DNA of 35,092 nt from Phycisphaerales bacterium (lineage in GTDB: Bacteria; Planctomycetota; Phycisphaerae; SM23-33). Each line of letters begins with the position of its first letter. The first letter of the stretch is position 1. Under the pieces are notes generated by a model that was not told the DNA's origin, made no database searches, and was given only the letters and a program-made list of their open reading frames with translations. Below, piece by piece: positions 5,091-10,997 of this stretch. The position numbers and the translations under genes are program-made. Location: positions 1 to 35,092 of the forward strand of contig JABGPF010000017.1 in the NCBI GenBank assembly GCA_018645065.1, read 5' to 3'.

Positions 5091-7496
5091 ATGGCAAGAC
5101 AAATGCTCATCAACAGCCTAACCGGACAAGAGTGCCGGATCGTGACACAAAACGACAGTGTCATGGAAGAACTCTACGTAGAACGAGCCTCAAACGCCTC
5201 GCGGGTAGGCAACATCTACAAGGGACGAGTGACCAACATTGAACCGTCGATCCAGGCGGCGTTCATCGACTTCGGACTGTACAAAAACGGATTCCTGCAC
5301 ATCTCCGATCTGACCAGCGAGTACTTTCCAAAGGGTAAAGGAAAGGTCTCAGGCGGTGAAGGCGTGGGGCGAAAAACCGCGCACAGAGACAGGCCCCCTA
5401 TCCAGGAATGCCTCAAACGCGGTCAGGAAGTCGTCGTGCAGATGACCAAGGAAGGCATCGGGACCAAAGGCCCGACGATGACCACCTACCTTTCCATACC
5501 CGGACGACTGCTGGTGATGATGCCCGGCATGAAACGCCTGGGCGTATCGAGAAAAGTCGAAGACGACGAAATCCGCGCAAAAGCCAAGGAAGCACTATCG
5601 CAACTTAAGCTACCGACGGACATGGGCTTCATCGTGAGAACCGCTGGGGTCGACAGGCCCAAACGCGAAATGCAGCGCGACTTGAACTATCTGCTGCGAT
5701 TGTGGAAGTCGACCAGCAAACTGATCAAAACTGAAAAGGCTCCGGTCGAAATCTACCGCGAGTCGGACCTGATCATCAGGACGCTGCGCGACGCTTACGA
5801 CACTGATATTTCGCGCATAGTTTGCGACAACGCCGAAGTGGCGGTTAAAGTTCGCGACTTCCTGAAAGTGGCGACTCCGCGCACGAAAACTAAAATCGAA
5901 GTATACACCGGCTCGGGCGGGCTCTTCCATGATATGGGGCTCGACGAGGAGATCGACAAGATCAACGCGCGGCGCGTGGAGTTGCCCTCGGGCGGTTCGC
6001 TGGTCATCGACCCGACAGAAGCGCTGGTGGCGATCGACGTAAACTCAGGCAGATCACGCGGACACAGCGACGCCGAAGCCACCGCGTTGAACACAAATCT
6101 CGAAGCGGCTCGCGCAATCGGAAGACAAATGCGAATGCGAGATCTGGGCGGGCTGGTCGTCATGGATTTCATCGACATGCGATCCGAGAAGAACCGCCGC
6201 GCCGTCGAGAAGGAACTGAAAGACGTGATGAAAGGCGATCGGGCCAAGAGTCGCGTTCTGCGTATCAACAGCTTCGGTATCCTGCAGATGACCAGGCAGC
6301 GGCTCGGACCACCGCTGAAGAACAGCTACTACAATAGCTGCCCGCATTGCGACGGGCTGGGGATGGTGAAATCCGATGAATCCCAGGCTCTGGTGGCTAT
6401 GCGGCTTTTGGCCCAGGCGTCGGGCAATCCCGACATCTCTAAAATCAACATCGTCTGCCCACCGCCAGTTGCCCACTACCTGAACAACTCACAGCGCAAA
6501 GATATAATCCTGATCGAGGAGCAGACGAAGAAACGGATTATAATCACCGCCGACAGCGATATGACCGGCGACGATGTGCGACTCGAATGCACAAACGCCA
6601 GGGGCTCGAAAGTAGCTAGCGAGGGCAAGCACAATCGCAAGAAGTTGAACACAGTCTCTCTCGATTCTTACCTCAACCAAAAGCCCGGTGAAACGGATCT
6701 TACCGACGAACTGGAAGAAAGCAAACCGGACAAGCCGAAAAAATCACGCAGGCGCAGAAGATCGAAATCATCGAAAAAGACCGAAGAGCAGGCTGATGCG
6801 GTCGAGACCAAAACCGACGAAGAGGCGAGCGATCAGCCCGAAGAAAAAACCGACGAGCAGCCTGAAAAACCCGCAAAATCCTCCAGGCGTCGACGACGGT
6901 CGGGAGCAAAACAAACCTCCAAAAAGACGGGCGACGAAGAGGCGAGCGACGAGAAAACCGAGGAAAAGTCCGAAGAGAAAACTGACGAGAAAACCGGTGA
7001 TGCGCCTGAAAAACCCGCTAAGCCCTCGCGACGCAGACGGCGTTCGGGTTCGAAACGAACGTCCGAAAAGACAGGCTCCGAAGACACGAACGGCGAGAAA
7101 ACCGAGGAAAAGTCCGAGGAGAAAACCGACGAGAAAACCGGCGATACGTCTGAAAAACCCGCTAAGCCCTCGCGACGTCGACGGCGATCGAGTTCGAAAC
7201 GAACCTCTGAAAAGAAGGACACCGACGACAAAGCAAAAAGCGAATCCGAGGATAAAGACAAGGGCGAAAAAGACGCCGCCAAGAAACCCCCTAGGAAAAA
7301 GGCAGCCAAACGCGCCAAGAAGAGCGCATCAGCCAAACCGGACAAGACCACACGAAGCATCGACGACGACCAGCCAATAGTTACACCGCCCTCGAAGCTT
7401 CGCGAAGAATTTGAAGCAGAGATACTGAAAGCACAAAAGGACAAACCGCCGAAAAAAACACTGCTCGAAGCAATGGGCTTCGACGACGGTGAATAA
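5091..7496 (+). CDS. Ribonuclease E/G family protein with long charged C-terminal tail
   Basis: S1 region, ALVAIDVNSGRSRG, DLGGLVVMDFIDMRSEKNRRAVEKELK, zinc-link CPHCDGLG, then a Lys/Glu/Arg-rich tail. Confidence 0.95.
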   Translation: MARQMLINSLTGQECRIVTQNDSVMEELYVERASNASRVGNIYKGRVTNIEPSIQAAFIDFGLYKNGFLHISDLTSEYFPKGKGKVSGGEGVGRKTAHRDRPPIQECLKRGQEVVVQMTKEGIGTKGPTMTTYLSIPGRLLVMMPGMKRLGVSRKVEDDEIRAKAKEALSQLKLPTDMGFIVRTAGVDRPKREMQRDLNYLLRLWKSTSKLIKTEKAPVEIYRESDLIIRTLRDAYDTDISRIVCDNAEVAVKVRDFLKVATPRTKTKIEVYTGSGGLFHDMGLDEEIDKINARRVELPSGGSLVIDPTEALVAIDVNSGRSRGHSDAEATALNTNLEAARAIGRQMRMRDLGGLVVMDFIDMRSEKNRRAVEKELKDVMKGDRAKSRVLRINSFGILQMTRQRLGPPLKNSYYNSCPHCDGLGMVKSDESQALVAMRLLAQASGNPDISKINIVCPPPVAHYLNNSQRKDIILIEEQTKKRIIITADSDMTGDDVRLECTNARGSKVASEGKHNRKKLNTVSLDSYLNQKPGETDLTDELEESKPDKPKKSRRRRRSKSSKKTEEQADAVETKTDEEASDQPEEKTDEQPEKPAKSSRRRRRSGAKQTSKKTGDEEASDEKTEEKSEEKTDEKTGDAPEKPAKPSRRRRRSGSKRTSEKTGSEDTNGEKTEEKSEEKTDEKTGDTSEKPAKPSRRRRRSSSKRTSEKKDTDDKAKSESEDKDKGEKDAAKKPPRKKAAKRAKKSASAKPDKTTRSIDDDQPIVTPPSKLREEFEAEILKAQKDKPPKKTLLEAMGFDDGE
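6861..7275 (+). repeat. In-frame 144-bp (48-aa) tandem repeat within the RNase E/G tail, just under 3 copies
   Basis: Units start at 6861, 7005 and 7149: PEKPAKSSRRRRRSGAKQTS..., PEKPAKPSRRRRRSGSKRTS..., SEKPAKPSRRRRRSSSKRTS... Confidence 0.9.
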
Positions 7497-7516: not shown

Positions 7517-8386
7517 CTATCGGATGCAGTAGTCGATCAGACGGGCGATTTCGCTGCGAAGTTCACCGCGGTGTACGATTCGATCGATAAATCCGTGTTC
7601 CAGCAGGAACTCGGCCCGTTGGAATCCCTCTGGTAATTCGCTTTTGATGGTGTTGGCGATTACTCGCTGACCTGCAAAACCGATCAGGGCTTTGGGCTCG
7701 GCGATTATCACATCGCCCAGCATCGCGAAACTCGCGGTCGTACCGCCGGTCGTAGGATCGCTCAGGACGGAGATGAACAGCCCGCCTGAGTTATCGTAAC
7801 GGGCCAGCGCCGACGATGTTTTCGCCATTTGCATCAGGCTCAGGGCGCCCTCGTGCATTCTTGCTCCACCGGAAACGCAGATGATAACCAGGGGCAGTTT
7901 CTCGTCGGTTGCAAATTCGATAATCGACGTTAGCTTCTCACCAACAACCGAACCGAGCGAGCCCATCAACCAGTCACCGTCCATTACGCCCAGGGCTACG
8001 CGGCGTCCTTTGATGTAGGCTACGCCCGTGCGAACGGCTTCGAGCTGCCCGGTTTTGGCCTGCTCAGCCGCTATGCGATCAGCAAGTTTTTTACCGTTCC
8101 AGGTGAATTTAAGCGGATCGGCGGGAGCCAGGTTCCCGAACATTTCCTCGAAGCTGTCCGGATCGGTGAGTTGCAGTATCCTTCTCTCACCGTTCAGGCG
8201 AAAGTGATGCTCACACTCTGGGCACACTTCCTGATTCTCAGCGACTGTTTTGCGATACAGCATCTCCTCACACACTGGGCATCTCAGCCACAGACCGTCG
8301 GGGATGTCTCGCTTCTCACGCATCGCCGGACCGGCAAAACCGGAGGAATCGTAAGGATTAGTTGTTTCAGAATCTGGTTGGGACAT
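7517..8386 (-). CDS. accD: Acetyl-CoA carboxylase carboxyltransferase subunit beta
   Basis: Zinc ribbon CPVCEEMLYRKTVAENQEVCPECEHHF; GGARMHEGALSLMQMAKTSSAL; GFAGQRVI. Start chosen at MSQPDSE (ATG at 8386). Confidence 0.95.
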   Translation of the reverse strand: MSQPDSETTNPYDSSGFAGPAMREKRDIPDGLWLRCPVCEEMLYRKTVAENQEVCPECEHHFRLNGERRILQLTDPDSFEEMFGNLAPADPLKFTWNGKKLADRIAAEQAKTGQLEAVRTGVAYIKGRRVALGVMDGDWLMGSLGSVVGEKLTSIIEFATDEKLPLVIICVSGGARMHEGALSLMQMAKTSSALARYDNSGGLFISVLSDPTTGGTTASFAMLGDVIIAEPKALIGFAGQRVIANTIKSELPEGFQRAEFLLEHGFIDRIVHRGELRSEIARLIDYCIR

Positions 8387-8393
8387 ATCAGCC

Positions 8394-9005
8394 TCACAAA
8401 GACAGCGAATCCATTTCGTAACTTCCCCATGTGAACTCACTGTCCACATGCGCCCATATCTGCTCGACCGGGTCGTTTGTCACCATGCATCGCAGCAGTC
8501 CGACCGCCACCGGGCGCAACACGAGCATCGCGGGGCCCTCTTTGTGGCGTTTGAGTATATTTTTAATCGCAGCGCGAAGGCGTTGCTGCGCTTCGTCGAG
8601 AGTCTCACCGCCCGGTGGGCGCACGCTCGAAGGCGAATCGATCCACTGGCGAACCAACTTGGGCTGGCGACGTTTCAGCTCTTCACGCGTCAGGCCCTGC
8701 CACAAACCGTAATCCAATTCGTGAAGGTCCGGATCGGTGCGAACTTTCGCTCCAATCGCCTCGGCGACCAGATCGGCGGTCTGACGCTCGGACTCACTAT
8801 CGCAAGCGTAAACCGAGCATACGCCCGAACCGCAGGCTGCAAGCTCATCAGCCACTTGCGACACCGCCACCGCGCCGTCGTCAGTCAGCGGAGCGCCTGG
8901 AAGCGATTCGATACGATCCTGGACCTCCCAGATAGTCTGCCCGGTCTGGACCACAAACAGCTTCAATATCTTACTTTTATTGCTTACGTTCAATTCGTGC
9001 CTCAA
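8394..9005 (-). CDS. Histidine phosphatase / phosphoglycerate-mutase fold protein, apparently catalytically degenerate
   Basis: Fold signature (LHELDYGLWQGLTREEL, RPPGGETLDEAQQRLRAAI) but RHGET is replaced by QTGQT and the C-terminal SHGG-type motif by RPVAV. Confidence 0.8.
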   Translation of the reverse strand: MRHELNVSNKSKILKLFVVQTGQTIWEVQDRIESLPGAPLTDDGAVAVSQVADELAACGSGVCSVYACDSESERQTADLVAEAIGAKVRTDPDLHELDYGLWQGLTREELKRRQPKLVRQWIDSPSSVRPPGGETLDEAQQRLRAAIKNILKRHKEGPAMLVLRPVAVGLLRCMVTNDPVEQIWAHVDSEFTWGSYEMDSLSL

Positions 9006-9009
9006 TTAC

Positions 9010-9714
9010 TCACCGACATCCGAGCCTTAGATCGTCAATGGCCCGCCCCACGTTGTCGGCTCGGAATATACTGCTGCCGGCTACGAATACGTCCGCACCG
9101 GCCTGTGCGCATTTCGCGATAGTTTGCGAGTCTACTCCACCGTCGACCTGCAAACGCTGCTCCGGGCGGAGCATACCGCGCAAGATCGTTATTTTATCCA
9201 GCATATCGTCCATGAACGCCTGTCCGCCATAACCGGGCTCCACCGTCATCACAAGCACCAGGTCAACCGAGTCGATAACTTCCGCCAGCGACTCAGCGGG
9301 CGTTCCAGGGCGAACCGAAACACCGGCGCCCAGCCCCAACTCGCCAAGACGCCTGATCAGCGTCATAGGTTCGTCAGTCGTTTCGATATGAAACGTGATG
9401 CTGTCGGCTCCGACTTCGGCGAAGCGTTCGATGTAATACGCCGGATCGGTCACCATTATATGCACATCGAGCACTGCGTCGGTGTGCTTTCTGATCGACT
9501 TAACCACCGGCGGGCCCATCGACAGGTTGGTCACAAAATGACCGTCCATAACGTCAACGTGTATCACGTCGGCTCCGGCGGCGAGCACCGAGTCGATCTC
9601 GCGACCGACGTTGGCGAAATCGCACGCCAGCAGCGAGGGCGCAATCACAGACCGTCCTGTGAATCCCCCCCACGGGTTGCCTCGTTCATTTTGGATATCA
9701 ATCACCTCAGACAT
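9010..9714 (-). CDS. rpe: Ribulose-phosphate 3-epimerase
   Basis: IAPSLLACDFANVGREIDSV, HVDVMDGHFVTNLSMGPPVVKSIR, VEPGYGGQAFMDDMLDKI, QVDGGVDSQTI. ATG at 9714 preferred over the upstream TTG at 9720. Confidence 0.96.
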   Translation of the reverse strand: MSEVIDIQNERGNPWGGFTGRSVIAPSLLACDFANVGREIDSVLAAGADVIHVDVMDGHFVTNLSMGPPVVKSIRKHTDAVLDVHIMVTDPAYYIERFAEVGADSITFHIETTDEPMTLIRRLGELGLGAGVSVRPGTPAESLAEVIDSVDLVLVMTVEPGYGGQAFMDDMLDKITILRGMLRPEQRLQVDGGVDSQTIAKCAQAGADVFVAGSSIFRADNVGRAIDDLRLGCR

Positions 9715-9716
9715 CA

Positions 9717-9762
9717 CCAAAGCCCATCAGCCGTTCGATTAGCACCGGCCGCTGGGCTTTGG
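9717..9762 (-). promoter_or_regulatory. Hairpin in the pgk-rpe intergenic region immediately 5' of the rpe start
   Basis: Perfect 10-bp arms CCAAAGCCCA (9717-9726) and TGGGCTTTGG (9753-9762), plus inner GCCG/CGGC; no T-tract follows on the - strand. Confidence 0.65.
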
Positions 9763-9788: not shown

Positions 9789-10997
9789 CTACTTCTGGTC
9801 AAGTACTTCGATGGGGCCCATCGGCTTGCCCTCGAGATACGTAAGCGACGCCCCACCACCGGTCGACACGTGGGTCATGCGATCGGCAAGGCCCATTTGA
9901 TCGACTGCCGCCGCCGAATCGCCTCCGCCAATTACACTTACGGCTCCGGCGTCAGTAGCGTCCGCCACCGCTTTTGCGATCGATTCAGTGCCGGTAGCGA
10001 ACGCGGGCTTCTCGAATACGCCCATCGGACCGTTCCAGATAACCGTTTTCGATGCGGTGATAATTGCACTGAACGCTTCGATCGATTTCGGGCCAATGTC
10101 CAGGCCCATCAGTCCGGCGGGGATGTTCACGCCGTCGTTGGGTATCGCAGCTCCGTTTGCGAAGTCGTCTGTGCAGACATGATCGCAAGGCAGGACGATT
10201 TTATCGCCCGCTCGGGCCAGCAGTTCCTTCATCGGCTCGACCTGGTCTTCCTCCAGCAGGCTGCTGCCGATCTCGGCGCCCTGGCTTTTCAGGAGCGTGA
10301 ACGCCATCCCGCCGCCGATGATGATCTTGTCGACCTTGTCAAGCAGCGTCGAGACGAGTTTGATTTTGTCGGACACTTTCGCTCCGCCCAGAATGGCGGT
10401 GAAAGGTCGTGCAGGTTCGGCGACGGCTTCGGCGAGATATTTGATCTCTTTTTCGACGAGGAATCCCGCAACTGCCGGTCCGCCGGCGGCTTGGACCGAC
10501 TTCGGGGCGCCCCACATTGAAGCGTGGTTGCGATGGCAGGTTCCAAACGCGTCGTTAACGTACACTTCGCCCAGGAGGGCTAGTTCGGCTCCGAAGGCTT
10601 CTACTTCGCCGACATCCTTGCTCTTTTCGCGCGGATCGAACCGCACGTTTTCCAGCAGCAGAACGTCACCGCCCTTTAGCCCGCCAACCATCGCAGCCGT
10701 TTCGGGTCCGGCGATCTGAGAGGGGCCCATTTTAACTTCACGGCCGAGCAGTTCGCTCAGGCGTGCAGCCACCGGAGCCAGTGAGAAGTCAGGGTTAACC
10801 TGCCCTTTCGGGCGTCCGAGATGGCTCATCAGGATCAGCGATCCGTTTGCTTCGAGCACTTTGTTAATCGACGGCAGCGCCGCCACTATTCGCTTATCGT
10901 TAGTGACTTTTCCGTCAGCCAGCGGGACATTGAAGTCCACTCGCATGAGTACTCTCTTGCCCGCTACGTCGATATCTGAAATCGTTTTTGTCGCCAT
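9789..10997 (-). CDS. pgk: Phosphoglycerate kinase
   Basis: RVLMRVDFNVPL, LMSHLGRPKG, LLENVRFDPREKSKD, AILGGAKVSDKI, VIGGGDSAAAV; AAGGA-type RBS upstream. Confidence 0.98.
   Translation of the reverse strand: MATKTISDIDVAGKRVLMRVDFNVPLADGKVTNDKRIVAALPSINKVLEANGSLILMSHLGRPKGQVNPDFSLAPVAARLSELLGREVKMGPSQIAGPETAAMVGGLKGGDVLLLENVRFDPREKSKDVGEVEAFGAELALLGEVYVNDAFGTCHRNHASMWGAPKSVQAAGGPAVAGFLVEKEIKYLAEAVAEPARPFTAILGGAKVSDKIKLVSTLLDKVDKIIIGGGMAFTLLKSQGAEIGSSLLEEDQVEPMKELLARAGDKIVLPCDHVCTDDFANGAAIPNDGVNIPAGLMGLDIGPKSIEAFSAIITASKTVIWNGPMGVFEKPAFATGTESIAKAVADATDAGAVSVIGGGDSAAAVDQMGLADRMTHVSTGGGASLTYLEGKPMGPIEVLDQK

Follow-up and report, generated by a model that had tools for sequence, protein, structure and literature searches.

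In histidine phosphatases, the His of the RHG motif is the nucleophile and forms a covalent phosphohistidine. The best sequence and fold matches to the protein considered here are PspA (4ij5/4ij6) and PhoE/YhfR (1h2e/1ebb), with which it shares its length, the order of its motifs, and the GxW(E)G and GE elements. PspA and PhoE have the RHG His, the second Arg, and the second His, whereas our protein has none of these; the PspA 4ij6 structure is that of an engineered His-to-Ala mutant. Cofactor-dependent phosphoglycerate mutases of the GpmA/GpmB type belong to the same superfamily, and the gene studied here lies near the glycolytic gene pgk, but its product is without the catalytic His and iPGM covers the mutase step in this genome. 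Loss of the RHG His has been described in fungal PFK2/FBPase-2 proteins of the PFK26/pfk2-b type, in which the FBPase-2 domain is kept without this residue and phosphatase activity is lost (PMC9721465). Those proteins are eukaryotic and have two domains, one of them a kinase half, whereas the protein described below is stand-alone and bacterial, and its second Arg and second His are gone as well. Other pseudophosphatases, STYX and MTMR13 among them, are inactive phosphatase folds whose regulatory effect comes from binding (PMC10211241); STYX and MTMR13 are eukaryotic and have unrelated, Cys-based folds, unlike our protein. In the open-access literature, which gives weak evidence on this point, we found no published description of a stand-alone bacterial pseudo-histidine-phosphatase family or of the planctomycete locus that encodes it.

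The gene lies in a minus-strand cluster within a 35,092-nucleotide stretch of Phycisphaerales DNA, the whole of which is called the window. The features of this cluster are as follows:

7517..8386, minus strand: accD, acetyl-CoA carboxylase carboxyltransferase beta (PF01039 and PF17848)
8394..8993, minus strand: pseudo-histidine-phosphatase gene, 199 amino acids plus stop, with an inferred TTG start; the open frame reaches 9005
8514..8516, minus strand: second catalytic His, now Arg (VLRPVA), by alignment to PhoE and PspA
8604..8618, minus strand: PPGGE, conserved fold and pocket-rim motif (second Pro 1.00, Gly 1.00, and Glu 0.98 in 108 sequences)
8694..8708, minus strand: GLWQG, conserved fold motif (both Gly 1.00 and Trp 0.97 in 108 sequences)
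8718..8720, minus strand: acid Glu, retained, by alignment to PhoE and PspA
8790..8792, minus strand: second phosphate-binding Arg (SxxxRAxxTA), now Ser, by alignment to PhoE and PspA and the motif table
8913..8915, minus strand: Arg28, invariant (frequency 1.00 in 108 linked sequences)
8940..8948, minus strand: QTG in place of the RHG motif, with Gln for Arg and Thr for the nucleophile His, by alignment to PhoE and PspA
9010..9720, minus strand: rpe, ribulose-phosphate 3-epimerase, directly upstream of the pseudoenzyme gene (PF00834, E=2e-70)
9789..10997, minus strand: pgk, phosphoglycerate kinase, upstream of rpe (PF00162, E=3e-148)

The preliminary description of this DNA had proposed an open minus-strand frame at 8394-9005 between accD and rpe, and the sequence and the Pfam matches agree: the frame is uninterrupted, with its TGA stop at 8394-8396, and pgk follows upstream of rpe. 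The likeliest start, as judged from the sequence, is the TTG at 8991-8993, six bases after a GAGG at 9000-9003; another possible start is the TTG at 8967-8969, which is in register with orthologue starts. The number of Arg28 counts from codon 8994-8996. The accD ATG (8384-8386) falls 7 nt past the pseudoenzyme stop, and the accD GAGG overlaps the TGA. Convergent with accD is an 801-amino-acid RNase E/G-like frame (5091-7496, plus strand; name assigned by eye), whose C-terminal tail is long and contains acidic and basic repeat segments (SRRRRRS, EEKSEEKTDEKTG).

Pairwise alignment of the window protein to PhoE (1ebb/1h2e) and PspA (4ij6), which spanned all motifs, revealed that four of the five canonical active-site residues are gone, with the acid Glu as the sole survivor. 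Of the residues expected in an active histidine phosphatase or mutase, the RHG His, second Arg, and second His are absent and the acid Glu is present; the Gly and Thr of RHGxT are unchanged. These alignments bear out the earlier proposal that the RHG motif and the second-His region are replaced while other fold features, such as GLWQG and PPGGE, stay intact. Replacement of the second Arg by Ser is a further loss beyond the two named there.

Despite these replacements, membership in the fold family is clear. The window protein matches PF00300 with E=1.2e-31 and 110 bits against a cut-off of 21.7, over profile positions 6-168, and all 25 pseudoenzyme family members tested match the same profile. 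Against the NCBIfam subfamily models, the window protein scores below their cut-offs only. An AlphaFold2 model computed from a three-sequence alignment was of moderate confidence (pLDDT 67, pTM 0.67), with the lowest values (pLDDT 30-45) just past the first strand, around the former RHG loop. Searched with Foldseek, this model found PspA H9A as its best match (E=1e-12, TM 0.75 by query), together with other branch-1 members. The profile and Foldseek results together identify the protein, on both sequence and fold, as a homologue within branch 1 of PF00300. GLWxG, PPxGE, Arg28, and Arg139 are nearly invariant fold-core and pocket-rim motifs in the linked family described below; that they line the pocket is taken from general knowledge of the fold rather than from coordinates.

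To place the window protein among its relatives, homologues with pgk, rpe, or accD beside them were called linked, and those without these neighbors were called unlinked. A first protein search of 100 related genomes gave matches in 49, with linked orthologues and distant unlinked homologues mixed; two named Phycisphaerae contigs from metagenome-assembled genomes match the window protein at 76% and 62%. A 25-sequence alignment (A1) was then searched against 248 class and 244 phylum genomes, all of them from Planctomycetota. The motif and neighbor table was compiled from the fetched hits, with the weakest phylum-search hits left out, and after duplicate removal it comprised 108 linked sequences from 18 Planctomycetota family-level groups and 14 unlinked sequences. 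Not one of the 107 linked sequences with a letter at the RHG-His column has His there (S, P, T, A, C, and W occur instead), and the second Arg is found in 0 of 108. The first Arg of RHG is kept in 49/108 and the acid Glu in 74/108, with Asn replacing the latter in 21, the f46, f79, and f86 groups. At the second-His column, 51 of the 108 have Arg and three have His, with Gly, Ser, or Pro in others. In contrast, the first Arg, RHG His, and second Arg are each present in all 14 unlinked sequences, as is the second His in 13/13 with a residue at that column. Because these unlinked matches, which retain RH and the second Arg (14/14), came from the same searches, the method was able to detect intact motifs. 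The search profile, having been built from linked sequences, ranks linked sequences first, and intact members were still recovered at E values of ∼1e-24 to 1e-40.

A branch with an SH-aLRT of 99 separates the linked sequences from the rest, in a tree made by a quick method, with no bootstrap and no inferred root. Mapped on this tree, linkage requires a least-changes count of 1, and none of 500 shuffles was as low. The pseudoenzyme has apparently been inherited vertically. Three f22 members (L126, L135, and L137) have the second His and lack the RHG His, a state that is possibly an intermediate or a reversion. In members of f46, f79, and f86 (L064-L071, L074, L075, L077-L085, L145, and L149), the acid Glu is also replaced, by Asn, and the first Arg is the only catalytic residue left (His in L079).

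Constraint on the protein was estimated by the method of Nei and Gojobori. The dN/dS of the window gene against three relatives was 0.13-0.18, compared with 0.11-0.18 for rpe and ∼0.05-0.06 for accD in the same pairs; these values are approximate, since dS was at least 1 in most pairs. At this Rpe-like level, decay or relaxed selection is ruled out, and the relatives' frames are open, with a few single stops flagged. Compared with intact homologues, the columns lost are those of the RHG His, the Asn after the motif Trp, the second Arg, the second His, and a few minor positions. Those kept, several of them at 100%, are the Gly and Thr of RHGxT, Arg28, both Gly of GLWQG, PPxGE, and Arg139. His reaches at most 23% in any column of the 108 linked sequences, which argues against a displaced catalytic His. 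The preliminary description had named two contrary outcomes, catalytic His residues displaced but present, or orthologues with RHG intact and this copy under relaxed selection. Neither holds, given the absence of a conserved His column, the absence of the RHG His from the linked sequences, and the low, Rpe-like dN/dS. Its proposal of a maintained pseudoenzyme is supported: the catalytic motif is lost in common across orthologues, the frame is open, and selection is purifying, with loss of activity inferred from sequence. We conclude that the gene, as judged from these comparisons, is a member of an ancient, maintained family of branch-1 histidine-phosphatase-fold pseudoenzymes, not a decaying gene.

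Most groups share the gene order pgk-rpe-gene-accD. In f5 and f46, the pseudoenzyme gene is flanked by rpe and accD, with no pgk within the fetched stretch. In f4, pgk is the only linked neighbor detected in 9/12 genomes; in the two f4 loci examined (L171:3820-5411 and L172:3305-4916), the pseudoenzyme gene lies between pgk and a DeoC/LacD-type (class I) aldolase gene. In G005, it is linked to rpe without accD. A partnership with AccD only is weakened by f4, with its pgk and aldolase, and by G005. Fusion to rpe or accD was also considered and rejected: long stop-to-stop frames look like shadow frames of GC-rich DNA, and for L115:2162-3247 (minus strand), where rpe and the pseudoenzyme share one frame, residues in rpe and at the junction are masked or unknown and we make no claim of fusion. 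The pseudoenzyme gene is missing from many genomes. When 20 class genomes without a linked match were searched permissively upstream of accD, no orthologue with an intact RHG was detected at the locus. In 6 of these 20 (L157, L159, L163, L164, L167, and L168), rpe and accD are immediate neighbors, indicating that the pseudoenzyme gene can be absent or lost. It is dispensable in part of the class and has no universally essential role.

In the window genome, whose assembly is estimated to be 92% complete, neither a second PF00300 protein nor the archaeal-type mutase (apgM) was detected, and iPGM is present. With no other PF00300 match and with iPGM present, the window protein does not duplicate a detected intact paralogue, and it is not the sole candidate for the glycolytic mutase. 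The idea of a displaced glycolytic mutase is likewise ruled out, as iPGM supplies phosphoglycerate mutase.

Since the same catalytically lost form is kept at the same place across Planctomycetota, the protein probably has a non-catalytic, perhaps regulatory, job. We consider a maintained non-catalytic regulator or scaffold the probable role. Such a protein would carry out neither phosphate hydrolysis nor phosphate transfer. Its intact fold, conserved pocket-rim motifs, and frequent Arg in place of the second His would most likely serve the binding of a ligand or partner protein, and it may tune a central-carbon enzyme from a neighboring gene, with Pgk, Rpe, AccD, or, in one group, the aldolase as candidate partners. 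The rim motifs and the replacing Arg, found in about half of the family, would fit an anion- or partner-binding pocket. However, pocket residues vary among relatives, so that no single conserved ligand site is evident and we put this pocket forward as a hypothesis. It may also be that the neighbors are simply left over from a housekeeping operon and are functionally unconnected to the gene. A more elaborate proposal is that this phylum-wide pseudophosphatase is a metabolite sensor or an allosteric subunit that connects Pgk/Rpe flux (lower glycolysis and the pentose phosphate pathway) to AccD and fatty-acid synthesis through a repurposed Arg-bearing pocket. We offer it tentatively and think it doubtful.

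A repurposed enzyme that is still catalytic, performing another reaction with residues such as Glu93, Glu131, Cys170, and the new Arg161, is unlikely. Several residues near the former site are well kept (Glu131 in 98%, Glu93 in 69%, Cys170 in 55%, and Arg161 in about half), and some pseudoenzymes do have other activities, for example SelO (PMC10211241). However, Glu93 is Asn in f46, f79, and f86, Arg161 is Gly, Ser, or Pro in others, and no new nucleophile is conserved family-wide, while Glu131, Arg28, and Arg139 are likewise conserved or frequent in active homologues. It is very unlikely that the gene is a structural or translational passenger, mainly coupling rpe to accD translation through a protein of little importance. 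The tight spacing, with 7 nt to accD and the overlap of its GAGG with the stop, and the clean absence of the gene from several genomes would suit that role, but amino-acid constraint as strong as that on Rpe and phylum-wide invariant residues require a selected protein, and in f4 the linked neighbors are pgk and an aldolase gene rather than accD. We give scant credence to weak residual phosphatase activity through remaining or solvent groups: the acid Glu is kept in the window protein, the first Arg in 49/108 relatives, and the second His in 3/108, but the phosphohistidine nucleophile is missing from all 107 linked relatives that have a letter in the RHG-His column, and fungal domains with an RHG His-to-Ala change are reported to be without phosphatase activity (PMC9721465). 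Although catalytic residues are missing, a decaying gene or an annotation or assembly artifact has a negligible chance of accounting for the same losses in 108 distinct sequences from independent assemblies and 18 family-level groups, with open frames and low dN/dS.

The maintained, probably non-catalytic protein favored here bears on how planctomycete genomes are read. Its PF00300 match invites annotation as a phosphatase or phosphoglycerate mutase, and metabolic reconstructions of Planctomycetota would be led astray by such labels. As a stand-alone bacterial pseudo-histidine-phosphatase in a core-carbon operon, it provides a test case for the retention of a fold after loss of the phosphate site. 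These results suggest an undescribed layer of central-metabolism control in a phylum with cultured members.
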